The notes under the pieces were generated by a model. That model was given only the letters and a program-made list of their open reading frames with translations, did no database searches and had not been told where the DNA came from. A stretch of 18,875 bases of DNA, taken from Flavobacteriales bacterium UBA1995 (GTDB taxonomy: Bacteria; Bacteroidota; Bacteroidia; Flavobacteriales_D; Sanyastnellaceae). Of the stretch, positions 1-12,251 are shown piece after piece. How positions within the stretch are numbered: the first letter of the stretch is position 1; each line of letters begins with the position of its first letter. The stretch is taken from contig DDCX01000010.1 of the NCBI GenBank assembly GCA_002336475.1, positions 1 to 18,875 on the forward strand, written 5' to 3'. A program made the translations under genes and the position numbers.

Positions 1-332
1 CACTACCTCCTTCGGGACTGCCATATCAATTTGTCAATTTCGCGTTCTCTAATCGCCACATTAGTTCTCTGAATCGTCATAACGCAAGCTGAAAAGCCCA
101 GCATTTAATTTAACAACCGCTCCATACCATGTGTGGAGCAACAATGTTTCGAATTGCTGACGAGTCTTTTTCAACAGACAACCTTATGTCAAAAACAGAA
201 CCACCACCCTCCCTTTGCAAGCACGAAAATCCCTCACCATGACTACCTGGCCCGGCAAAAAGATCTAATACTGGCGTTGACTGATTACCAACACTCTAAA
301 TCAACATAACATTTGATTCATATTCGAGAATT
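1..332. other. Gene-poor left edge, downstream of the RT operon
   Basis: No convincing gene lies in these 332 bases. It is AT-rich and lies downstream of the minus-strand RT operon. It holds one clear hairpin (119-139). On the minus strand an ATG at 24-22 opens eight codons reading MAVPKEVV before the window edge; this could be the beginning of the next gene, but eight codons cannot establish that. No terminator with a T-run was found after the stop at 333, so transcription from the RT operon may continue through this stretch. Confidence 0.5.
119..139. repeat. Short inverted repeat / hairpin
   Basis: GCTCCA at 119-124 is the exact inverse complement of TGGAGC at 134-139. Pairing continues inward through one G-T wobble and two further pairs, leaving a three-base loop CAT. 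There is no T-run on either side, so it does not look like an intrinsic terminator. It could be an RNA hairpin in the 3' part of the RT operon transcript, or chance. Confidence 0.4.
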
Positions 333-1064
333 TTATTTCAATCCGTCTAAGTTATACGCTGGCCACAAACACCCAAAAACAGAACACAATGTCCTAACAT
401 TGTCTAAGATATGCTCATCATGAAGTTTATCCATTTTCGTAAAGTCGTACTTGATCGGAACTAACTCCTTGGTTTTCTCATCCACCTCTTTTGGATGTTT
501 GTATTTACCGTGATGACGATACACCTCAATTGACTTCGAACCCAATTGACGCTCCTCATCATTAAAACCATCAAATTCCAAAAGCAGAAACGCCTGCTTA
601 TCTGCATTTATACCCTTCTTTTCCTTTTTTTGCTTGCTCTTTACGAATTGGTCAAAACCTCGTTTTTCTGGAGAACGACTACTCTTCTTATTCACTGCAC
701 AGCAAAGGTCTTCAAACACCAATACCCAACGATCGTAATAGTCCTTTCGATCATCAAAAGACATCTTCCCATTAGCCTCCTTCTCATGCAATAAAACCAA
801 CAACTTACCAGCCCTTTCCACAAGATCATCCCTATTGTCTCGGCACTCCTTCTGAATACAAGAGTCAAAGTTGAATGTTACTTTATTCGGATCAATTATT
901 TTCGAAAACAAGCTGGAAAAAGGAGTTTTTATCAATTGGACCCTTTGTTCCTCTTCTTCTTCGAGATTTTTTAATCGCAGTAATCGGCGACGCATGTCAT
1001 CCCGCTCCTTTTCCTGAATGCGCTCATCTCTCTCCTTGCGCAATTGATGCTTCGACTTGCCCAT
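333..1064 (-). CDS. Charged hypothetical protein, accessory to reverse transcriptase
   Basis: This 243-residue protein belongs to no family I recognise. Residues 1-45 are almost all charged, with many Arg, Lys and Glu and a run of five Glu near 35-39, which suggests a long helix or coiled coil. Residues 105-125 contain an aromatic, hydrophobic helix-like stretch (YYDRWVLVFEDLCCAV), 141-151 is a lysine-rich patch that could contact nucleic acid, and the C-terminus is aromatic. There is no signal peptide or membrane segment, so it is probably cytoplasmic. Its ATG lies only 7 bp after the RT stop codon, so the two are very likely co-transcribed. Base composition is AT-rich like the RT and unlike rmuC. 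A role as RT partner or effector is inferred from position alone. Confidence 0.75.
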   Translation of the reverse strand: MGKSKHQLRKERDERIQEKERDDMRRRLLRLKNLEEEEEQRVQLIKTPFSSLFSKIIDPNKVTFNFDSCIQKECRDNRDDLVERAGKLLVLLHEKEANGKMSFDDRKDYYDRWVLVFEDLCCAVNKKSSRSPEKRGFDQFVKSKQKKEKKGINADKQAFLLLEFDGFNDEERQLGSKSIEVYRHHGKYKHPKEVDEKTKELVPIKYDFTKMDKLHDEHILDNVRTLCSVFGCLWPAYNLDGLK

Positions 1065-1071
1065 TGATAAT

Positions 1072-2784
1072 TTAGGTCAACCCACGGGTCAAGTCAGCAA
1101 CAAAACGATCTAGTCGTGCTTTTGAATTCCGAGATCTACAATAAAGCGATCTGGCAATTAATAAGGGCGACTTCTCTGTCCTCAACACATCTAGAACGTC
1201 CAACAGTTCAGATGAGCCATCTTCTACCCTTTTAAGCAAGAGCAAATAATACCCAAGGCGTGCAAGCTCCGAATCACATTTGACCAGACCCTCGATGTGC
1301 TTCGCAATCTCGGACTCCCCTAAAACTGGCACTGTACTGAGCAGAACAAGCAGCTCAAACACAATTTTTTCATGACGCTCATTTACGGCAATAGCGCGAG
1401 AAATAGCATCTGTAAAGCCTAGAACACTCGCACATCCTTCCAGTGCCCAAATGAAGTGATTTGCTCGATGCGGCATTGCTTGAATCATATCAGTCCAAAG
1501 CCGAAGCCAGTCCGCCCCCACAATACACTGACTCAACGTTGCCTGTCCAGAAATTCTCAGCACATCCCGATATCTCCTGAAATAGTGCGCTCTCCTCATC
1601 CATAGCCTTTCCTGAGCCTTATCTAAATGAGGTCCACGAACTTTGCCATGCACGAAAACTAGCTCATTGTAATCAGTCAGAACCTCTTTCGAAAAGTGTT
1701 GCCATTCTGAGAGCCGATCGCTCGGAGACTGTGGCTCTTTATCTAATTCATCAGCAGTTTCACGAAGCCCAGCAGTCCGCGGCGGAAGTACGTCAGAAGC
1801 CTTCTCGGTCGAATGTTCACCAAAACCTTCCTCAAGGCGCAAGGCGACTCCAGAAACAGCAAGAACATCAACTTGTGACGAGTCGTCTATCTCAGCAAGA
1901 CACTGCACTCTTGTTTTGCTAGAATTCAATGTCAACCCAAGCCGCTGGAGTATGATATCTATCTGAACCAAAGCATCCCATGCATCTTTCTCGTCTTTAA
2001 GGAATACATGTATATCATCCACATACCGCATATAAAGAACGTCGGAAGCAATGAGGTCTTCATCAAGACTCGCCAAGAGGAGATTAGCCAAAAATGACGA
2101 AGCACCAGGCCCTTGCGGAATACCCACACCTAGGCACTGAGAGTCCCTAACACCGGACCATTTATACAAGCACTCAAACAGTAAGCTCACAATATCATCA
2201 GGCAGGTCACAGCGCTTTTCGATAGTAGAGCGAAGCACCTCGTGATTAACCGAAGAAAAGAAAGAGGCGATATCCGTTTTCAAACAATATTGGACATCAC
2301 TTCTCTTTTTGATTGTCTTTTGTTTCAATTCAAAATTACTCCAGCCAACCTGGTAACGCTCAAAAAAATAAAACTTCAGTGGACGATCGGAGACCAATAC
2401 CTCCTGTGCTTTCCACGCGACCTCTTCTTTGACGACTTGACCAAAAACAAATTCATCTAAGCCTTGCAAAACAGCGTATGACTGACGAGCCAACTCATCA
2501 ATGATACATTGATAAACAATTGCATCCTCCGCATTCAACAGAGTCTTGGGCCTCAAGGTCCCTGATGCCTTCGGCTCAAAGTACTTCAGAGGCGTTCGAG
2601 GGTAAAAATCACCTGAACACAACTCTTCAGAAAGCCTTGCCAGATTTCCCTGAAGATCAGCTTCAAACAAAAAGAAACCAGAGCGCCCCAATTCATCCGG
2701 CTGATAGAAATCACGAACACATCGCTCATAGGCCAAACGTAGGTTGTCCAACCCAAATACCTGACTTCTGGCTTCTTCTGTCAT
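1072..2784 (-). CDS. Reverse transcriptase with helical C-terminal domain (candidate defence RT)
   Basis: RNA-directed DNA polymerase of about 570 residues. Numbered from the ATG at 2784, the fingers/palm signatures are in order: RPKTLLNAEDAIVYQ near 78-92, catalytic-Asp motif LKTDIASFF at 168-176, GIPQGPGASSFLANLLL at 221-237, the YVDD active site at 254-257 and an NSSKTRV motif near 287-293. A hydrophilic linker (about 311-370) leads to a mostly helical C-terminal region of about 200 residues. There is no maturase/HNH or integrase domain and no group II intron was seen, which argues against an intron RT or a retrotransposon. The layout resembles the Abi/UG (DRT) RTs of phage defence, but I cannot assign a group. 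Longer readings of the frame begin inside rmuC; the start at 2784, 34 bp after the rmuC stop, is preferred. The gene is AT-richer than rmuC. Confidence 0.88.
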   Translation of the reverse strand: MTEEARSQVFGLDNLRLAYERCVRDFYQPDELGRSGFFLFEADLQGNLARLSEELCSGDFYPRTPLKYFEPKASGTLRPKTLLNAEDAIVYQCIIDELARQSYAVLQGLDEFVFGQVVKEEVAWKAQEVLVSDRPLKFYFFERYQVGWSNFELKQKTIKKRSDVQYCLKTDIASFFSSVNHEVLRSTIEKRCDLPDDIVSLLFECLYKWSGVRDSQCLGVGIPQGPGASSFLANLLLASLDEDLIASDVLYMRYVDDIHVFLKDEKDAWDALVQIDIILQRLGLTLNSSKTRVQCLAEIDDSSQVDVLAVSGVALRLEEGFGEHSTEKASDVLPPRTAGLRETADELDKEPQSPSDRLSEWQHFSKEVLTDYNELVFVHGKVRGPHLDKAQERLWMRRAHYFRRYRDVLRISGQATLSQCIVGADWLRLWTDMIQAMPHRANHFIWALEGCASVLGFTDAISRAIAVNERHEKIVFELLVLLSTVPVLGESEIAKHIEGLVKCDSELARLGYYLLLLKRVEDGSSELLDVLDVLRTEKSPLLIARSLYCRSRNSKARLDRFVADLTRGLT

Positions 2785-2818
2785 TTGATCAACTGTAAAT
2801 TTATTCAATTCAGTTGTC

Positions 2819-4120
2819 TTATAACCCTCGCTGCTCACCCTCTTGCTGCTGCAACGCATCGAATCTAATTGGACCGCTCGGAGCATACAAATCTGGCAAA
2901 CCAGCAATCTGAGTTGCGTCAAGGGCTTCGAGTTTGCGGCCAGAAGGCAAGATGCGACTTTCCCATGAGCCGACAGCGCTATCATATGCTTCAGATGCGC
3001 CCTTTAGGCCCTTCCCCACCTTCACGAGGTGACCGGCGAAAGCGGCCAAGCGGCTATGGAGCTCTTTTCCCGCAGCGATGATTTTCTGGGCATTCTCTGT
3101 CACACTGTGCTGTTGCCAAGACAAGGCCACCGACTTCAGCACGGCCAGCAACGTTGTTGGCGTGGCGATAATGATCTTGTTGTCCATCGCATCCTGAAGC
3201 AGCTTCGGGTCCGTCACCATAGCTGTGGACAAAGCGCTCTCCACTTGCATGTAAAGCACCACGAAGTCCGGTGCGTTGTCGAACTGGGCCCAATATGACT
3301 TTCGACTGAGCGCAGTGACGTGCTTGCGCACATCTGCGGCGTGCCGCACAAGAAGACCTTCCCGCTCGGAATCGACCTCGCTCTCGAGGGCACTCAAGTA
3401 AGCATCTAAAGGCAGCTTAGAGTCCACCACAATCTGGCCGCCACCAGGCAAGTTGACCACGAGATCTGGCTTGATTGCGCCACCCTCAGTCTCGGCATAT
3501 ACCTGTTCCGAGAAATCACAGTGGGGCGACATGCCGGAGAACTCCACAACCCGCTTGAGACCGATTTCCCCCCATTTACCACGGACCCGTGGGTTGCGAA
3601 GGGCGTTTACCAAAGCGGTCGTTTCCTTCTGCAAGACGCTATTGCTGGACTTCACATCCGTCATGAGCTGCATCACCTGACCGAACGTCTCTGAGTTGCC
3701 CTTCTCCAAAGAGTTAATCCGCTTGGTGTACTGCTCCAGAGCAGTCTTCATTGGCTTGAGCAATTCCTCGATGGAGGCTTTGCGCTGATCAAGCTCTCCC
3801 TTGGAACTGGTGATCTTCTCCCCCAGCGTCGTCTCGGCCAGCTTCAGGAATCGCTCGGTATTCTGCTGGAGCGCGTCACCTGCAGCTGACTTGAAAGAGT
3901 CCCGCAGCGTCTCCTTGTACGCCTCGACGGCCTCTTCCTTGCCGATTTCGATGGCCTCTAGACGCCCTGTGTGGATTTTCAACTCTGATATCTCTGCGTC
4001 CTTTGCTGTGGTCAGCTCAGCCAGTTGCCGAGCTTGTTTTTCACGACCGATAAGCCGTGCAGCAACCCAGCCGATGAAAAAGAAAAGGATGGCGACTGCC
4101 ACTTTGATTGTAATGTCCAT
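2819..4120 (-). CDS. rmuC: DNA recombination protein RmuC
   Basis: Membrane-anchored RmuC-family protein of 433 residues, a normal length. Residues 5-22 form one hydrophobic N-terminal segment, followed by a long coiled coil (about 25-170). The family core follows, with the RGKWGE signature at 180-185 and a nuclease-like PD...DxK pattern (PD at 218-219, DSK at 233-235). RmuC proteins limit rearrangements at inverted repeats and are predicted nucleases related to the PD-(D/E)XK fold. It sits 32 bp behind the helicase gene and 34 bp ahead of the RT. RmuC is normally a housekeeping gene; its place between a helicase and an RT is either the native neighbourhood of an inserted RT module or a functional association. 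Base composition is higher in G+C than the RT. Confidence 0.93.
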   Translation of the reverse strand: MDITIKVAVAILFFFIGWVAARLIGREKQARQLAELTTAKDAEISELKIHTGRLEAIEIGKEEAVEAYKETLRDSFKSAAGDALQQNTERFLKLAETTLGEKITSSKGELDQRKASIEELLKPMKTALEQYTKRINSLEKGNSETFGQVMQLMTDVKSSNSVLQKETTALVNALRNPRVRGKWGEIGLKRVVEFSGMSPHCDFSEQVYAETEGGAIKPDLVVNLPGGGQIVVDSKLPLDAYLSALESEVDSEREGLLVRHAADVRKHVTALSRKSYWAQFDNAPDFVVLYMQVESALSTAMVTDPKLLQDAMDNKIIIATPTTLLAVLKSVALSWQQHSVTENAQKIIAAGKELHSRLAAFAGHLVKVGKGLKGASEAYDSAVGSWESRILPSGRKLEALDATQIAGLPDLYAPSGPIRFDALQQQEGEQRGL

Positions 4121-4152
4121 GTATAAAGACCTTTAATTGACGCACGAACCTC

Positions 4153-5502
4153 TTAGGCTGCATAAAAATTGATGGCACTGACCGAGCTTTTTGCCCGGGT
4201 CATTGCAGTGTAAAACCACTGCCAATTTTGGAAATGCGGATTCCTCCGCATCCAAATTGGCTTGACAAAAACCGTCTCAAATTCTCGGCCCTGCGCTTTA
4301 TGAGCGGTCATGGCATATCCAAAACGGGCCCGGATGGCATTCATGTGCTCATCGTTGACACTGTTTTGATACTCCCGGTATTTGGGGTTGGTGCGCATGG
4401 CCTCTTCTTTCAGCTTCTTTTCCGCATCCGGACCAATGAGTCCCTTTTCTGAAAAGAGAACATCCAAATTCACAAGAGATCGAACAGGATCCTTGCTCAA
4501 TTCCGTCACCATTTCTACCCCTTGAAAACGGCACCCACCCCACTTGTGGACAGACTCATCCACATCTGTGACATACAAGCGCGTCCCTTTGGGAATGACC
4601 ACCCCCTCGATCATCGACGCTTTGTCGGTCACGAGGTGATCTCCGGTAGAGAGAACACCGTCTTCCCGGTCCATTATGTTCCTCACCCCCTGATTCATGA
4701 AGTTGGCCTCTTTGTTTGAAAAGACGATGGACACCGTTTGAAGAATGGGGTGTTCCGGAGCATCGGACGCCGTGGCCGTAATGGCATTTTCGACCCGATA
4801 CTCCTTGGGCATTCCAACCTGAGTTGCGCTCGACTTCCAATCATAAGAAGCTCCTCCCCGCATCAAATCGATGCACCGTGTGGTCATGTCCCGAATGGGA
4901 GAGTCGTCTTTTTGCCTCATGACCTGTGACAACTCCGAGGTCACCACCCCTGCCCCCTCTCCCCAGAGCTCAGCCATCACCTCCGGTGAGAGCGCATCAG
5001 ACTGCTCCTCGTTCACTGGAGGCAACTGAAACAAATCGCCTACAAACACCATCTTACACACCTTGGCATGCCTCTTTCCATGGGCAATCAAATCGCGCAG
5101 AACGGTAGTCGGGGTCTGAAATCCAGCTTGCCCTCCCATTCTGTTTGGCACCATAGATGCCTCATCAACCAACCACAAAACCTTCTCCTGAACGACCTCC
5201 ATTTTTGGCTCAAACACGACCAGATCACCCTTCTGCATCGGTTTGTATATGGCCTGGTGAATGGTATCACAGGACATGCCAATTCTATCGTGCAGATTCA
5301 TGGCCGCAGAGTTAGTAGGCGCCAAGAAGCGCGTCTTGAAACCCTGCTCAACTGCACGCTGGTGCAACTGTGCCATCATGGTCGACTTCCCTGTACCCGC
5401 ATAACCACGGATGATTGCAACAGAAGGATCATGGTCACCCAAAATGGCTGATGAGCGCTCAAGACAGCGCTTCTGGTCTTCGTTCAGTTCAAATGCACTC
5501 AT
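4153..5502 (-). CDS. SF1 DNA helicase, Dda/RecD-like
   Basis: ATP-dependent DNA helicase of superfamily 1, 449 residues, close in size to phage T4 Dda. Visible motifs in order are a Q-motif-like LNEDQ (6-10), Walker A GYAGTGKST (33-41), Walker B LVDEAS (111-116), motif III GDLFQLPPV (155-163), motif IV LSQVMRQ (191-197), the UvrD_C_2-type motif V GYAMTAHKAQGREFETV (from about 395) and motif VI FYTAMTRAK (430-438). All key residues are present, so it should be active. Family members unwind DNA 5' to 3'. It starts 2 bp after the upstream small gene, so the two are probably translated from one message. Similar stand-alone helicases are also common in ordinary Bacteroidota chromosomes, so it may have no link to defence. 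Confidence 0.9.
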   Translation of the reverse strand: MSAFELNEDQKRCLERSSAILGDHDPSVAIIRGYAGTGKSTMMAQLHQRAVEQGFKTRFLAPTNSAAMNLHDRIGMSCDTIHQAIYKPMQKGDLVVFEPKMEVVQEKVLWLVDEASMVPNRMGGQAGFQTPTTVLRDLIAHGKRHAKVCKMVFVGDLFQLPPVNEEQSDALSPEVMAELWGEGAGVVTSELSQVMRQKDDSPIRDMTTRCIDLMRGGASYDWKSSATQVGMPKEYRVENAITATASDAPEHPILQTVSIVFSNKEANFMNQGVRNIMDREDGVLSTGDHLVTDKASMIEGVVIPKGTRLYVTDVDESVHKWGGCRFQGVEMVTELSKDPVRSLVNLDVLFSEKGLIGPDAEKKLKEEAMRTNPKYREYQNSVNDEHMNAIRARFGYAMTAHKAQGREFETVFVKPIWMRRNPHFQNWQWFYTAMTRAKSSVSAINFYAA

Positions 5503-5504
5503 GA

Positions 5505-5786
5505 TCAGTTCTTAAAAATGGGCCTACTGCTGATGACGAGAAAACGAACAGCCTTTGACGTCAGCACAATTGGCCCCTTCTCAGGCATCACAACCAAACC
5601 TTTTTGCATGAGCTTTCGCGTCATTAGGTTCCAGTCATCCCCAATCAGTTCACGCGCATTTTCAAGCTGCGAATGATTTTGGCAAAGGGTCGCCTCCAAC
5701 CGAAAAGCTTCAAATCCTTGAATCTTAAATTTCTTTTGCGCTTGACTTACCAAAGCCAAATCAAGCAACTGAAGTGCTGCCGCCAT
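5505..5786 (-). CDS. Small winged-helix-like hypothetical protein
   Basis: The reading frame is open from 5924, but the first 46 codons look non-coding and would run into the divergent regulatory region. The internal ATG at 5786 gives 93 residues and has a purine-rich AAGGAG, though about 19 bases upstream. Residues from about 45 to the end (ending in a QKGLVVMPEKGPIVLT-like wing followed by SKAVRFLV) have the helix-helix-strand-strand feel of a winged-helix DNA-binding domain; this is a guess from pattern, not a family match. It is the first gene of the minus-strand run and is only 2 bp from the helicase. Confidence 0.6.
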   Translation of the reverse strand: MAAALQLLDLALVSQAQKKFKIQGFEAFRLEATLCQNHSQLENARELIGDDWNLMTRKLMQKGLVVMPEKGPIVLTSKAVRFLVISSRPIFKN

Positions 5787-5905
5787 ATCATCTGATTCTT
5801 GTGGACTCCTTCTTTTCAAACTGAATGCGCCTTTGAGTGTATGTGTGTGCGTTCTGATGATTTCCGAGCTAACCAAACAAGCTATCCCGCCAAATCCATT
5901 GCAAA

Positions 5906-5958
5906 ACTGAGTCTGGTAATTCACTCAGCCCAGCTCAGTACTTTCACTATTGCGCAAT
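5906..5958. promoter_or_regulatory. Candidate operator repeats between the WYL gene and the helicase run
   Basis: The interval between the divergent genes contains three related half-sites, ACTGAGT (5906-5912), ACTCAG (5923-5928) and CTCAGT (5934-5939). The first pairs as an exact inverted repeat with either of the others. Just beyond is the perfect 10-bp palindrome ATTGCGCAAT (5949-5958). WYL-domain regulators such as BrxR and CapW bind inverted repeats upstream of their own defence operons, so these are plausible binding sites. No protein-DNA evidence exists here. Confidence 0.35.
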
Positions 5959-6030
5959 TACTATATTCAGGCGTCAACATGACGAACCTGCTTTTCGGCC
6001 TTATTCCACACCCTTCTTTCCCAAGCCAGC

Positions 6031-7245
6031 ATGCAATCCCACAAAAACCAAGTCCACCGGCTCGTGCTTATCGATCGCGTGCTGCAACACAATACATTTC
6101 ATGAACCTGCAGGCATGAACAGTAAAGACTTGGAGCAATGTGTCCAAAGCCTCCTCTCAACTTCAGAGGGGCAGCAACTCACCTCCGTCCCCTTTAATGA
6201 ACTGTGGAAGGGAAAAGACGCATTCCGAAAAGACCTCAAATTCATCTTGACCCACTATCCAGAAGTGATGCAAAAAGTGGGGAACAAGCTATGGAGCTAT
6301 TCCAATCGTGGCGCCTCAATTTTTCCCAGGTTTGGAAATATTGAAAAAGACGCGCGCATCCATAGCCTTATCCTATTACTGGATTACATCAAAGAACTCC
6401 CTTTCATTCATGACTTTGATATAGAGCAGAGCATCACCACCCTGAAAAATTGGTACGGATGGTCAACCCCATCAAATGCCAAACCCCTTCGAAATTTCCA
6501 CCATCAATTTTCATCTGAAGACAGCGATGCTTTCAGCAAAAACCACATCATCACGCTACACGAATCATTGGGAATAAACATCGTCGAAATAAAATACACT
6601 TCCTCAAGACAAAACCTCACAAGACATCTCGAATTCCACCCATGGGAATTCCACCAATCCGAAGGTCGATGGTATGTAGCTGGTTTTATATCCGCCGATT
6701 TAGAAGGTAATTATCCAGGTGCGGAGCGCTCAAACTATCCTGGTCTTGTTCTCAAACTCTCGCAAATCCAATCTGTGATCCAGCTGAAAGGCTCCGAAAT
6801 CCAATTAAGACAGTCCCAAAATCTGAACCAACAAAGGCACACGTTTATCACAAGAGACAAGTACCCTACCCTACTTGACTTTCAGAACAGAATCGGTGTA
6901 GGTGGATGGGACCATTCTCTCATTGCCCTCAAAGGACGAGTAGATCTAACCATCGAATTTCGCATCACAGAAAAAGCGTACAAGTACTTCGAATCGACAA
7001 CTCTAGTGAGCTATTGCCGAAAATCTAACGCAACGGAACTCAACGGGTGGATCAAACTCCTTATCCCGATTTTACCAAAAAACAAAGTCAAAGGAACACC
7101 GACCATTTCAACTTTAAACAGAGAACTCATCGACATCCTTCGATCGTATGGGGCCCAAATAGAAATCCTTTCTCCTACCGAACTACGAGACAAGTTCCGA
7201 CAGGAGACAAGACAAGCAGCTTCTTTCTACAAACAAGAACATTAA
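6031..7245 (+). CDS. WYL-domain transcriptional regulator
   Basis: A 404-residue protein with the architecture of WYL regulators. The N-terminus begins with the typical RLVLIDRVLQ helix near 10-19, followed by a roughly 120-residue helical part likely to include the DNA-binding domain. The WYL domain starts near 173 and contains the characteristic core HPWEFHQSEGRWYVAGF (203-219), where GRWYVAGF matches the usual GRWYLxGY block. A WCX-like C-terminal region follows. WYL domains sense ligands such as nucleic acids or nucleotides and often repress phage-defence operons (BREX, CBASS and others). It is divergent from the helicase-RmuC-RT run and convergent with the ATPase pair, so it could control either. 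The ATG at 6031 gives the full conserved N-terminus. Confidence 0.82.
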   Translation: MQSHKNQVHRLVLIDRVLQHNTFHEPAGMNSKDLEQCVQSLLSTSEGQQLTSVPFNELWKGKDAFRKDLKFILTHYPEVMQKVGNKLWSYSNRGASIFPRFGNIEKDARIHSLILLLDYIKELPFIHDFDIEQSITTLKNWYGWSTPSNAKPLRNFHHQFSSEDSDAFSKNHIITLHESLGINIVEIKYTSSRQNLTRHLEFHPWEFHQSEGRWYVAGFISADLEGNYPGAERSNYPGLVLKLSQIQSVIQLKGSEIQLRQSQNLNQQRHTFITRDKYPTLLDFQNRIGVGGWDHSLIALKGRVDLTIEFRITEKAYKYFESTTLVSYCRKSNATELNGWIKLLIPILPKNKVKGTPTISTLNRELIDILRSYGAQIEILSPTELRDKFRQETRQAASFYKQEH

Positions 7246-7309: not shown

Positions 7310-8371
7310 CTAGTTCTTGGCTACAGACTGCACCATAGTCGCCTCGACACCGTTCAGCTTAGTGCTGAGACAACGTTCAACCAAATTCTCCCACTCCGGG
7401 CTAAATACAGTGGTGACCCTCACATCAACAGGTCGGCCATTCCGTTTATCCTCTCGGATGGAGCCAAGTTCATTTGTAAGATCAAACACATTCGGGCCCC
7501 CAGTCAAAAACAACCTCCTCTTCACAGCATTGGCCCCCTTCGCTTGACCATAAGGCATAATACCAAGGACGATCTTCCAAGTCCCACCGTAATACGAACT
7601 CAAATAATCTATTAACCGACTCGCCAATTGCTCCATCAACCGAGAGTCCACCCGCATATTTCGCTTCTTCATCTCCTTTGTAACCCTCCCCACTACGACA
7701 AGCGTATTATTTGAATTCAGTCTCTTCCAACCATCGCTAATCAATGGTTTCAGTTCAGCAATGATCTCCTGCTGCATCAAAACCGTGTCAGCAATTGGCT
7801 CCCCCAGGACATCTTCATGTGTCAACCCTTCAAGCTGCAACGTAAATAAGTCATCTAAGCAAAAATTCCGGTCAGCATCAAAAAGCAACTCCCAAACACT
7901 ACTGAACGCAAACCAACTACGCGACACAAAAATTCCTCCATTCAACTCCGCATCAGCACATGGCGTCAATTCCCAGTGGTCGCCATCCTCAATCAAAAAA
8001 TCAAAGGATGGCCTTCTTCCAGTCAAAACATTGGACGCGAAATAATACTCCAATCCCTTAACTGACACTCCACATGGAATCGAAACAACACAAGACCAAT
8101 CAAGTTCATGCCCTGAATAATCGACCCTGAACTGCGACGTAAACTCATCACAGCCACCTAATTGAACACAACTCTTCAACCCTGACGGGGGCATCTCTCT
8201 AAAATTCAAAAGTCCGCCACCAGCCAACGCTACAACAATCTCATCAGATAACTGACGCTTATCAAAGCTTTGGTAAACCTTAATTCCCAAGGACGCGAAA
8301 AATTCATACCAGTCATCCCATCCCGAATAAACTTGATCCTCTAGAAACTCCTTTCGAATAACAACATCCAT
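7310..8371 (-). CDS. Unrecognised partner protein of the AAA ATPase
   Basis: A 353-residue soluble protein that I cannot assign to a family. It has no signal peptide or membrane segment. The N-terminal 200 residues are rich in aromatic and acidic residues and look like mixed alpha/beta. The C-terminal third reads like an alternating beta/alpha fold: TLVVVGRV (about 225-232), then a helix, KIVLGIMPYGQAKGANAVKR, and VDVRVTTVF near 325. It does not carry the DUF4435/TOPRIM pattern expected of a PARIS AriB effector, nor an obvious nuclease motif. Its ATG is 6 bp after the ATPase stop, so the two form a tight two-gene unit. The gene is AT-rich like the ATPase. A role as effector or sensor working with the ATPase is inference. 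Confidence 0.75.
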   Translation of the reverse strand: MDVVIRKEFLEDQVYSGWDDWYEFFASLGIKVYQSFDKRQLSDEIVVALAGGGLLNFREMPPSGLKSCVQLGGCDEFTSQFRVDYSGHELDWSCVVSIPCGVSVKGLEYYFASNVLTGRRPSFDFLIEDGDHWELTPCADAELNGGIFVSRSWFAFSSVWELLFDADRNFCLDDLFTLQLEGLTHEDVLGEPIADTVLMQQEIIAELKPLISDGWKRLNSNNTLVVVGRVTKEMKKRNMRVDSRLMEQLASRLIDYLSSYYGGTWKIVLGIMPYGQAKGANAVKRRLFLTGGPNVFDLTNELGSIREDKRNGRPVDVRVTTVFSPEWENLVERCLSTKLNGVEATMVQSVAKN

Positions 8372-8377
8372 CTTAAC

Positions 8378-9859
8378 TCAGCTGAAGTGAATTCCTCTAA
8401 TTAATCGGCTGCTTTCATCCAAGAAACCAGAGGGCAACGCCTCGGTCAATTGCCCTGTTCGCTCAACTCCTATTTCATGAACTCGCAATTGCCCCCCATC
8501 ATTAGAAACCCAATTAATAATAAAATCATTCAGTCCAATCGATCCATCTTTCACCGCCAACTGACCTCGCCTAAGGAAATATTCACTGTGAGTCTCAACA
8601 ACAAATTTCACTTGAGCCTTATAATTCTCAATCAGATCCTGGAAACTACACAACACTTCCAAAATCTTAGTTTGCGCGTCCGGATGCAAACTGACTTCAG
8701 GCTCTTCTATTACAAAGATGTGACGCTGATGAAATGAGTTCTGCATCTTATCACAATACCACGTCAACATAAAAGCCAACTCAAGGATCAGAACAAAAAT
8801 TTGCCTCTGACCAGAACCCAAGTCAAAATGGTAAAACCCGTCCTCGAACTTAATCAGCAACATTCCACCTTTCGACTCTTCAATTTCAAAGCGCCCGATA
8901 TCGAATTTCTTAAGTGCTGAAATTAGCCAGCCCCTTATCTCATCCGAAGGCCAAGCTTTCTCAAACTTTCTTGTCTTTCGCTTCTTTAATTCACTCCATA
9001 TCCTAGAACTAGGGTCAAAGACCCGAGAACTCTCAATGCGTTGACGCACTTTGAAATGCTTAAACAACGGGATTAATCTTGGGTTGTGCGGGTCTATTCC
9101 ATCACACAACATACCTAAAAGATTTGGTGCTTTCAGCCAGCTGGAGACTGACTCTATTTCATCTCGAAAAGCCTTGTCGCTAAAATAAAGCGCTCTAAGA
9201 CCATCTTCAATAAAATGGTTTAGCCCATGAAGCTCAACTTCCTTTCTCTGAATAACCTCAGCATCTCCACTTTTGATGTCTTTAATGAACCCCAATCCCT
9301 CTTTTGATACACGTGACATCTTGTCACGCATTTCGGAATCTACAGACTTAATAGAATCACGTGAGAATTCAACTTCCTCCTTAGCAAAGGATATTCGCTC
9401 AACAAACCCCGAAGTAAATAAACCTATCAAATGAAAATAGGCAGGACAAACTGAAATCAAAGCCTTCTGTTTTTCATCAGACAGAGGCATCAACTCCATG
9501 CAATAAACCGTGAACTCACTTTCTGCATAGCGAATTTCGAAACGGTTGTAGACAGCGCCAAAGTCATCTTTTTTAATGCTTTGACTAAAGACAAACTCAT
9601 CAACACGCCATTCAAAATCTATTGGCTTCTTTGGGTTTTCTGCAATCTCTTCGAAGTCATAAATATTAAATTTCGCACTCCAATTGTCTCCGAGCTCCAA
9701 CTTACCCATGCGGTTTTTTACAACGTGATGACCATACGCAAGCGCATGCGTCAGTGTTGTTTTCCCAGCTCCATTTTCGCCCAATAAAACTGTTATCGGA
9801 CTGAGCCTGAGGTCTACTGCCTCACCAGCCCTTTTGAAGTTTCTTACCTTGAAATGCAT
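8378..9859 (-). CDS. AAA/ABC-type ATPase, OLD-like with DUF3696-like C-terminus
   Basis: SMC/RecF-fold ATPase of 493 residues. Walker A GENGAGKTT is at 27-35, immediately after an N-terminal strand typical of AAA_15/AAA_21 proteins. The long middle region (about 40-340) is partly helical. The ABC signature-like LGSGQRQ is at 347-353, Walker B IFVIEEPEVSLHP at 381-393 and the H-loop-like THSEYFLRR at 423-431. The last part ends RTGQLTEALPSGFLDES, close to the WPxGFFDE ending common in DUF3696 ATPases. No TOPRIM domain is fused. Such ATPases are the sensing component in many two-gene defence systems. It is followed after 6 bp by an unknown 353-residue gene. The upstream gene ends 61 bp away and is much more GC-rich, suggesting a composition boundary there. 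Confidence 0.88.
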   Translation of the reverse strand: MHFKVRNFKRAGEAVDLRLSPITVLLGENGAGKTTLTHALAYGHHVVKNRMGKLELGDNWSAKFNIYDFEEIAENPKKPIDFEWRVDEFVFSQSIKKDDFGAVYNRFEIRYAESEFTVYCMELMPLSDEKQKALISVCPAYFHLIGLFTSGFVERISFAKEEVEFSRDSIKSVDSEMRDKMSRVSKEGLGFIKDIKSGDAEVIQRKEVELHGLNHFIEDGLRALYFSDKAFRDEIESVSSWLKAPNLLGMLCDGIDPHNPRLIPLFKHFKVRQRIESSRVFDPSSRIWSELKKRKTRKFEKAWPSDEIRGWLISALKKFDIGRFEIEESKGGMLLIKFEDGFYHFDLGSGQRQIFVLILELAFMLTWYCDKMQNSFHQRHIFVIEEPEVSLHPDAQTKILEVLCSFQDLIENYKAQVKFVVETHSEYFLRRGQLAVKDGSIGLNDFIINWVSNDGGQLRVHEIGVERTGQLTEALPSGFLDESSRLIRGIHFS

Positions 9860-9920: not shown

Positions 9921-10664
9921 TCACTTCCAGCAATCGACACGCCAATGGGGGCGAGCAGGGTCGTCGTCATGGCGGATGTGGTGGGTCCATTGGCGGGCAG
10001 AGCGGTCGTGGCATTCCTCCGGCGGGGATTCAAAGAGGCGGCTGCGGTCCCAAGACACGATTTGAAACATGCCCTTTTGGGCGATGATGCGGCTGGTCAG
10101 GTCCTCAAGCCAACCGTTTTCTGAGGCTGTAGCATCGCCATATGCCCAATCCTTGAACGTCACCAGTCGCAATACCTTGAGCCGATCGCCATGGTCATCG
10201 AGCAGCTCGTTGATCAGCCCCACCGCCTCTGACAAGGCGAGTTGAAGCCGCTCACTCCGCGATTGCATCCACCCTGTGTGCGTACCCATCACCGTCATCA
10301 CCGCACACGGCGAATACGTGGAGCCTCCAGGCAACACTGTCTCCCCTCGCTTGAGGCTCGCCCGTCGCAACTCCCAAGGACTGTTTGCCCCAGTAGGGTT
10401 GATGTAATCCTCAATCAACCTGGCATAAGAGCCCAGTGGATCCTTCTCATCATAAGTGGTTTCCAAGGGCTCATACTTGTTGCCCAATGCGGCCGCGAGC
10501 CAATGAAACTGGCCGTATGATTCAAACTCACTCTCCTGCGCCAAAACCCCATATAACGTGGGCTTATAGTCCCATTTAATCTTGCGTTGAAGCGTCTGCT
10601 TTTCTCGCAATTCAGCCTCAAGCCGCTTGCGAGGATTGTCTCCCAAGGTCCTCGAATAATTCAT
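9921..10664 (-). CDS. Hypothetical protein, second of a coupled pair
   Basis: A 247-residue soluble protein of no family I recognise. It starts with a charged helix (residues 10-30), has a Trp/His-rich middle and ends in a polar Arg/His/Asp-rich tail. A TTG lies one codon further upstream, but the ATG at 10664 shares its A with the TGA stop of the preceding gene (TGATG), a classic arrangement for translational coupling, so this start is preferred. Function is unknown. Its composition is more GC-rich than the ATPase gene that follows 61 bp later, so I do not place it in the same unit. Confidence 0.72.
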   Translation of the reverse strand: MNYSRTLGDNPRKRLEAELREKQTLQRKIKWDYKPTLYGVLAQESEFESYGQFHWLAAALGNKYEPLETTYDEKDPLGSYARLIEDYINPTGANSPWELRRASLKRGETVLPGGSTYSPCAVMTVMGTHTGWMQSRSERLQLALSEAVGLINELLDDHGDRLKVLRLVTFKDWAYGDATASENGWLEDLTSRIIAQKGMFQIVSWDRSRLFESPPEECHDRSARQWTHHIRHDDDPARPHWRVDCWK

Positions 10665-11437
10665 CAAAACGGGACCTCATTGGGATCCATAGGGGTGTAC
10701 TCGCGGAATGCATAATGGGACGTGCTGGTTTCCTCACACCACATTCCATTGCTGTGGGTGCACCACGTCAATGGCTTGCCCCCCATCGCGTACCAACGCG
10801 GTTCCATAATGTCCCACACCATGTCTTTTCCTTCAAACGCAAACGGCCAATCCACACACTCATTCGGATCATAATAATTCTGCCAGATGTATGGCTCGAA
10901 GCCTGCACCATAGTGGTTGTCATTCCACATCCAATCGTCCTCCTTGAAATAGGCGTGCACCGCTTCCATGAAACGCTCAGAGCGGAATGCAAATACATGC
11001 TCTCTCAGATGCATTCCAAAGTGGACTTCTCTGTAGGGGTTGAACTCCTCCTTGCGGAAGGGACTGTGATCCCCAAACAAGGGCTCGTAATGCATGCCCC
11101 TCGTACATCCCGCAAAAGGCATGCGCTCCCAATTGGGATCCCAGCTCGAGACTTGCTTGTGATGAAGGTTGTCATCCCCTGCGAGCTGGTACAAGCCGTG
11201 CACCCAATCAATCCGTTTGCAAATCACCTCCCAAGATTTGCTGGCGTCAGGGATGATGTTGACCTCAGCCTCTGCCCACACTTTTCGAGCATGCTTTTCC
11301 TCAAGGTCGAGGTCTCGTTTCCGCTTCGGCCCCATTTCGCGCATGGAGGTCACCTCTGCGAGGTGCGCCATAAACCGGGCGTTTTCCCGAAAAGTGGGAC
11401 TGGCATTGTCCAAATGGTTGGGGTCGAGGTGCATCAT
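10664..11437 (-). CDS. Hypothetical protein, first of a coupled pair
   Basis: About 257 residues, unrecognised. The frame is open back to 11554, but the first 39 codons look non-coding (Cys/Pro-rich), so a start at the tandem ATG codons at 11437/11434 is preferred. A charged helical segment follows (REMGPKRKRDLDLEEKHARK). The second half is unusually rich in Trp, His, Tyr and Met, for example WMWNDNHYGAGFEPYIWQNYY. It has no signal peptide or membrane segment. It overlaps the next gene by one base (TGATG). The lipoprotein gene upstream has its own terminator, so this pair probably has a separate promoter in 11440-11580, although none is clear. Confidence 0.7.
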   Translation of the reverse strand: MMHLDPNHLDNASPTFRENARFMAHLAEVTSMREMGPKRKRDLDLEEKHARKVWAEAEVNIIPDASKSWEVICKRIDWVHGLYQLAGDDNLHHKQVSSWDPNWERMPFAGCTRGMHYEPLFGDHSPFRKEEFNPYREVHFGMHLREHVFAFRSERFMEAVHAYFKEDDWMWNDNHYGAGFEPYIWQNYYDPNECVDWPFAFEGKDMVWDIMEPRWYAMGGKPLTWCTHSNGMWCEETSTSHYAFREYTPMDPNEVPF

Positions 11438-11583
11438 ATTGGGGCAGACTTTAGAATTGGGGGGAGGGCAAGATGCAGCCCCGTGTGGTTCGTTCCAAAC
11501 CCCCTTTTTCAACACCGTGTTGGACCGATAGGAACAATGGGGTGTTGGCGGCACTCGCCAACTTCTCCACGGGCGCCAAAACA

Positions 11584-11611
11584 GAAAAGGCCGACAAATG
11601 CCAGCCTTTTC
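11584..11611 (-). terminator. Intrinsic terminator after the lipoprotein gene
   Basis: GAAAAGGC (11584-11591) is the inverse complement of GCCTTTTC (11604-11611), with a 12-base loop. Read on the minus strand the stem ends in CCTTTTCTGTTTTGG, a T-rich tract. It begins 20 bases after the stop of the lipoprotein gene at 11631, the expected place. Confidence 0.6.
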
Positions 11612-11630
11612 ATTCTTTTATCTCAAGCCG

Positions 11631-12251
11631 TCATTTTCCCGAAGGCTTCATCGTCGCACCCTTTAAACGCGCCTTGATTTGAGACTCTTGCGAGAATAAA
11701 CCTTGTCTGTATTGAATGTCATATCGTGGGTTGAAAAACAGGTCAACATTTGGATTGTCCTGTATCAACTGCCGCTCCATTTCGCCAGTCACACCGCTGC
11801 TTGCAATCCCTGAATACACCACATTCTGTATGCCGCCCCAAATCGGAACAGCCATGGGAAGCGATAGAATCCAAGGCAGTTTATATTCCACTTTTCCTGT
11901 TTGGGAGCTGTAATAGGAACCACCTCCTTCTCGGATGACTGCTCCAGTAACAAAAGTGCCCGCAATCATGGTCAACAATGGCACCAATTTGGGAAATCTG
12001 AATCCCCCTGGCCCGTCCAGATTTATGATGAGTCCAGTGGAGCTCACATTGTCAATCTGCCCTATACCTGATGGAATCCCAAAGACAGCTTTACCGGTAA
12101 CTTCAACAGGGGTAAGCTCTTGCCAAGTGTATTCATCACCCAGGTGAATCGGGTGCTCATGTCGGGCTCCATTGGCAACCAAGCGTTGCTGGGAACAGGA
12201 AGAGAGCAAGACAACCGCAGCCAAGGCTAAAGGTAAAATTCGGCGGAACAT
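11631..12251 (-). CDS. Hypothetical lipoprotein
   Basis: A 206-residue predicted lipoprotein. Residues 1-18 form a signal peptide (Arg-Arg near the start, then a Leu/Ala/Val core) ending in the lipobox LSSC, with the lipidated cysteine at 19. The mature part has two hydrophobic glycine-containing stretches, around 89-107 (LVPLLTMIAGTFVTGAVI) and 128-145 (WILSLPMAVPIWGGI), which could be membrane-associated. The C-terminus is basic. I do not recognise the family. It is a single-gene unit with a candidate promoter upstream and a terminator downstream. Confidence 0.8.
   Translation of the reverse strand: MFRRILPLALAAVVLLSSCSQQRLVANGARHEHPIHLGDEYTWQELTPVEVTGKAVFGIPSGIGQIDNVSSTGLIINLDGPGGFRFPKLVPLLTMIAGTFVTGAVIREGGGSYYSSQTGKVEYKLPWILSLPMAVPIWGGIQNVVYSGIASSGVTGEMERQLIQDNPNVDLFFNPRYDIQYRQGLFSQESQIKARLKGATMKPSGK

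Follow-up and report, generated by a model that had tools for sequence, protein, structure and literature searches.

Does a reverse transcriptase (RT) gene that is followed by a gene for a charged protein in a flavobacterial genome represent an undescribed defence unit, or a divergent form of a system already catalogued? The two genes lie in an 18,875-nucleotide stretch (hereafter the window) of contig DDCX01000010.1 from Flavobacteriales bacterium UBA1995 (assembly GCA_002336475.1), both on the minus strand: a 570 amino acid (aa) RT (1072-2784), UG19-like according to the PADLOC profile RT_UG19, the Pfam domain RVT_1 and its placement in a tree, and a 243-aa partner (333-1064), probably a divergent RTas1465-like protein according to a 67-member family profile and a helical predicted model. 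We propose that the pair is a deep branch of the UG19 RT plus RTas1465 type that works as a two-gene counterpart of AbiA with an HEPN-like partner, a reading that we regard as an even call. It is carried by the profile match and grouping of the RT, by the gene order, by the correlated divergence of the RTs and the partner family, by two features of that family, an R...H motif and a predicted fold like that of HEPN proteins, and by the occurrence of relatives among defence genes. Membership of the window partner in the RTas1465 family is probable, the two-gene, AbiA-like mode of working is what we infer from these data, and the pair is probably antiphage.

The two reading frames and the catalytic core given in a preliminary description of this DNA were borne out by the sequence. 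The core comprises DIASFF, which holds the first catalytic Asp (2257-2274, minus strand; D, I, F and F invariant in 21/21 aligned rows), GIPQGP (2107-2124, minus strand; GIPQG invariant in the same rows) and YVDD (2014-2025, minus strand; YMDD in most relatives). The RT reads from an ATG at 2784 to a stop at 1072. A mechanical frame extends to 2985, overlapping rmuC, and a database record gives 595 aa; we prefer the ATG at 2784 because the N-termini of relatives favour it. The same description had the RT lacking maturase and integrase domains, the second gene starting seven bases behind it with a helical N-terminus, and both genes AT-richer than rmuC. All of this holds: RVT_1 is the sole Pfam domain found in the RT (9.4e-18), the gap from RT stop to partner start occupies 1065-1071, the predicted model of the partner has a long helix at residues 5-46, and the G+C content is 45.8% for the RT and 40.2% for the partner gene, against 55.1% in rmuC and 59-61% across the trmL-to-SulP genes. 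Since the RT represents a protein cluster of 5 contigs and the 243-aa protein one of 12, the pair is no artefact of a single assembly.

RT_UG19 was the top PADLOC profile for the window RT (288 bits, 4.1e-86, residues 8-517 aligned to 5-487 of 562), followed by RT_UG21 with 181 bits. Scores against the group II, retron, Drt and AbiA equivalogs were all far under their cut-offs; the group II RT/maturase profile reached 85 bits through the shared palm, with a curated cut-off of 300, and the AbiA equivalog TIGR04499 reached 39.6 bits, with a cut-off of 250. Judged by its sequence, the RT is of neither the intron nor the retron type. No PDB relative of its C-terminal region, where Class 1 UG RTs have an alpha-Rep domain, was found by sequence profile up to E 10. 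A protein search in which the best 7996 candidates were scored listed the RT itself and 56 others, and RT_UG19 was matched by 21/21 of the window RT and the 20 homologues aligned with it.

We placed the RT in a maximum likelihood tree of 51 rows, rooted by midpoint only, which took in 20 of the 57 listed RT homologues together with RTs from the related loci described below, leaving out three partial RTs (L032, L033, L036) and L025. Here the window RT is the lowest branch of a group with 41 further RTs, each about 550-630 aa long; 30 of these are the locus RTs, with which it shares 27-33% identity. Support is 96/90 for the window RT with these 41 and 94/99 for the 41 without it. A long branch (2.62) and a deviating composition make its exact place unsure. 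Outside this clade stand five RTs of about 700 aa, two UG21, one UG34 and one UG25. The five longer RTs fit the UG19 profile better, with 404-566 bits, and the forks joining them, the window clade and the two UG21 RTs are without resolution. The tree thus does not decide whether the window clade is nearer to the longer UG19 RTs or to UG21, and the name UG19 rests on the profile. The proposed assignment to the Abi/UG type was right: UG19 is the best profile, and the window RT groups with RTs of the same layout.

One genome per species was scanned, non-exhaustively, for two peptide patterns. This gave 34 related loci, most of them in Bacteroidota; the hosts also include one Ignavibacteria bin, Vibrio, Paraglaciecola and a further gammaproteobacterium. 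At every locus with enough downstream sequence (31/31), the next gene behind the RT is a same-strand open reading frame (ORF) of 202-219 aa. Its frame overlaps that of the RT in these 31 relatives by 4, 13 or 16 bases when starts are assigned mechanically, and by 1 or 4 when counted from an ATG. The 30 distinct partners form one family (L025, which does not differ from L024 in the part compared, was left out of the alignment), and 30/30 match RTas1465, a PADLOC accessory family of defence-associated RTs (DRT) without a functional name. The UG groups were reportedly set up by a survey of RTs, from which RTas1465 presumably stems as well. Contrary to the preliminary description, the layout is therefore catalogued, and the window's second gene is probably a very divergent member of a partner family listed for RT systems; the view of the two genes as a real unit was correct. 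In NCBIfam and Pfam the family has only scattered weak matches, among them, in Pfam, HEPN_LA2681 in 2/30 with a best E of 0.042. RT and partner distances are strongly correlated (r 0.947 over 29 loci, L033 dropped; 0/2000 permutations as high), a figure to which shared descent contributes. In the sole UG19 RT of about 700 aa examined in this respect (L112), the neighbour is another gene, of 232 aa and with no Pfam family, so the RTas1465 partner may mark the clade of the window RT.

Defence was the role suggested for the pair at the outset, and it is the likeliest one. Ten neighbouring genes from nine of the related loci each match a PADLOC defence model with an E value no higher than 1e-20; they belong to type I restriction (methyltransferases) and BREX (BrxHI, PglZ) or are TmtA genes. 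As they were picked by eye and not at random, they stand for at least 9 of the 34 loci and not for a rate. In one locus the RT-partner pair lies between two type I methyltransferase genes (L011:4485-9753), in another it directly precedes pglZ (L009:5947-10815), and in a third the RT directly follows brxHI, the contig ending behind the RT (L026:3793-7623).

The predicted fold of the partner family (representative L005) appears to resemble HEPN ribonuclease toxins of the HEPN-MNT (HepT) type. HEPN toxins carry R-x4-H-x-Y, and the R-x4-6-H of the HEPN superfamily is present in the partner family: the Arg is found in 61/67 members, the His in 66/67 and the exact R-[N/S]-x3-H in 58/67. Two mechanisms are candidates, with the HEPN-like protein either an RNase effector controlled by the RT or a partner of the polymerase. 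Retention of R and H in most family members leans to the former. Under it, the RT would make DNA without a cis-encoded RNA template and would be complexed with the HEPN-like protein. The RT or its DNA would change on phage infection, and the HEPN ribonuclease thereby released would cut cellular or phage RNA and stop the infection. In PMC13174585 the Class 1 UG RTs studied so far are described as making DNA without a nucleic acid template. Put in full, this proposal would make UG19-RTas1465 units HEPN ribonuclease systems controlled by an RT without guide or template RNA, in effect a split AbiA whose toxic HEPN effector the RT or its DNA restrains; the window would hold the most diverged lineage seen here, with a rearranged HEPN active site, R-x6-H in place of R-x4-H. 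We advance this combined proposal tentatively, as one that may well prove wrong.

The alternative that survives best keeps the HEPN fold and removes the nuclease. The partner would dimerise or steady the RT for DNA synthesis, as in AbiA, and the DNA product or a drain on deoxynucleotides would block the phage. AbiA without its HEPN domain is a monomeric, inactive enzyme, and no RNase activity was seen in vitro, according to PMC11077055. In the window partner the family's Arg column holds a His (H185), and Leu stands there in 6/67 members. The altered site of the window, together with the AbiA precedent, leans to such a polymerase-partner role. However, R and H are retained across the family (61/67 and 66/67) more than a scaffold seems to need, and the partner is encoded as a separate gene. 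We consider a purely structural partner somewhat unlikely.

That the window's 243-aa protein belongs to the RTas1465 family is probable. The plan to search it with profile methods gave a divided result: catalogued models were silent, and our own profile was not. The PADLOC RTas1465 model did not respond even at E 10; the protein received no PADLOC or NCBIfam family name, and its single Pfam match, SIR2_2 (E 0.01, below cut-off), was taken as chance. A protein search returned only the protein itself, no bridging homologue was found in phages, plasmids, viral contigs or the 399 genomes of the order except its own, and Foldseek with its predicted model gave no meaningful match. In contrast, a profile of 67 members, using 37 of the 120 listed partner homologues, scored 16.2 bits (bias 6.2) on the window partner, a value reached by none of 2000 full and none of 2000 local shuffles (maximum 9.4). 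The best of 246 real neighbouring ORFs scored 4.6 with this profile, after one true family member (L025) among the initial 247 had been set aside, and the best of 247 reversed sequences 5.9. The profile of the 30 locus partners aligned in two collinear blocks with 12.9 bits. Pairwise scores with L003 and P0178 were each reached by 1/500 shuffles, and that with P0177 by 7/500. From the C-terminal block of the family, the window partner retains Gly, Tyr and His, and the predicted models of the window partner and a family member have their main helices in the same order and the same hairpin, the former model having been built on an alignment that presupposed the family match.

Several results weigh against membership. 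Profile-profile comparison with the family gave a probability of only 16%, although its score tops the controls, of which 120, L025 among them, were scored in this way. A profile of the L003 sub-clade failed, 525/2000 shuffles reaching its score. The mean identity distance of the window partner to the family is no better than that of 15 unrelated proteins and 15 shuffles. Finally, RHHGKYKH (495-518, minus strand), which contains R183-x6-H190, sits where the family has R-[N/S]-x3-H, with H185 instead of R183 in the Arg column. Divergence of the RTs predicts a partner distance of 0.84, and 0.86 was seen; loss of plain similarity is thus what the depth of the RT predicts, though unrelated proteins give the same value. 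As plain identity is at chance level, homology to RTas1465 is probable, in our judgement quite strongly so, but not proven.

The competing view, that the 243-aa gene is unrelated to RTas1465 and that some other charged protein took its place with a different working, draws on the missing family name, the chance-level identity, the misplaced Arg and the long N-terminal helix. It has to account for a profile score that none of the 4000 shuffles or 246 real controls matched, for the same place and strand, for the retained C-terminal residues and, with the reservation just given, for a divergence close to that expected. We find it unlikely.

A further possibility is a Class 2-like DRT templated by an undetected non-coding RNA (ncRNA), as in DRT2, DRT9 and DRT10. 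The Class 2 UG RTs so far investigated work with cis ncRNAs (PMC12632851 and PMC13174585), and several related RTs have conserved sequence in the 300 bases ahead of them: L007 and L022 are 81% identical over 94 bases, though their RTs are only 42% identical. The conserved element is about 100 bases long and forms a hairpin in which 5/18 pairs show two-sided changes (L027:289-393, L022:5896-6001, L007:1002-1103). We rejected it as an RT-specific ncRNA. Its core occurs at more than one place in 5/8 genomes (four in L007 and L027, five in L020, two in L005 and L030, counts that may include the copy at the RT) and singly in three, and 28 stretches of viral contigs contain its 17-base core. It is a dispersed repeat, which lies upstream of several UG19-like RTs and at other sites in some of the same Bacteroidota genomes, perhaps integron-type or resembling a miniature inverted-repeat transposable element. 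In the window itself the 34-base spacer between rmuC and the RT leaves no room for an upstream ncRNA, the 332 bases behind the partner (1-332) fold no better than shuffles (z 0.76), and no Rfam match was found in 1-6000. An RNA-templated system of this kind therefore appears improbable.

That the RT belongs to a retroelement, a group II intron or another non-defence enzyme has in its favour only the palm-borne group II score and is largely refuted by the distance of that score from its cut-off, the absence of a maturase domain, the UG19 match and the defence genes around relatives, in agreement with the preliminary description.

The unit is patchy, being present in 5/399 genomes of the order, its own included, and neither an RT at UG19 level nor the partner was seen in the genus's 16 other genomes, of which several are incomplete. 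In 6/16 genus mates trmL was found, and SulP also in five of these six stretches; this side of the window is thus old backbone. At E 1e-4, the genus-mate stretches beyond trmL (36-9168 bases) matched none of the window's partner, rmuC, helicase, WYL and ATPase genes; for the window RT the sole match was to the palm of another RT, 371 aa long. The latter adjoins trmL in genus mate G093 (L065:7713-8828), a possible defence hotspot. Joint acquisition of RT and partner, suggested earlier from composition, fits the G+C values and the genus-mate comparison, with the caveat that the window rmuC likewise differs from its genus mates: it is only 22-31% identical to matches in 13/16 of them, and a second rmuC of the genome lies on C97.

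Upstream of the RT, the minus strand (2819-5924) carries rmuC (2819-4120, 34 bases away; Pfam RmuC 5.8e-90), a RecD-like helicase (4153-5502; PADLOC PDC-M16A, 215 bits) and a 139-aa unknown protein. Farther on, an AAA_15/AAA_21 ATPase (8378-9859; PADLOC NsnB, 103 bits) stands in tandem with a 353-aa unknown gene (7310-8371), both on the minus strand (7310-9859), beside a divergent WYL-domain protein (6031-7245, plus strand). The tandem resembles a further two-gene defence candidate, one without a name, with the WYL protein as its regulator. Between the ATPase and trmL lie three minus-strand genes (9921-12251), for proteins of 248, 296 and 206 aa, none of which has a Pfam family.

The pair is ordinary in kind, because UG19 with RTas1465 is a catalogued candidate; what is new is how deeply the lineage branches and that its partner is read as HEPN-like. 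In the literature searched, a scope outside which the survey defining the UG groups lay, we found no experimental study of UG19 and no statement of the partner's nature. For an RT listed as a defence candidate, the HEPN-like reading supplies a concrete hypothesis on the effector, which a change of one residue could test. The two-gene layout would allow polymerase and HEPN to be removed separately, which is less simple in the fused AbiA. To judge by the window, the diversity of the unit also extends beyond what present profiles cover.

Among known systems, HEPN-MNT (HepT) toxins resemble the partner family in predicted fold; here the partner accompanies an RT instead of a nucleotidyltransferase, and the Tyr of R-x4-H-x-Y is not conserved. 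DRT10 combines a UG17 RT with a SLATT protein and an ncRNA, and offers the parallel of an RT with a small co-evolving partner proposed as effector (PMC12632851). It differs from the present pair in its RT group, in having SLATT where we find an HEPN-like protein, and in its ncRNA, no cis counterpart of which was found here. AbiA of Lactococcus joins RT, helical and HEPN domains. The pairing of an RT with an HEPN-type domain is common to both, and the AbiA motif has the same R-x6-H spacing as the window partner, whereas here two separate genes are involved and the RT falls outside the AbiA family. The closest counterpart is UG19 with RTas1465 (PADLOC PDLC03756 and PDLC03792). The window differs from it by an RT that branches below its relatives at low identity, by a partner outside the reach of the PADLOC model, longer (243 against 202-219 aa) and with a long N-terminal helix, and by a 7-base gap where relatives overlap. 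It shares with it the best RT profile, the ORF length, hosts of the Bacteroidota type and a partner of similar size directly behind the RT on the same strand.
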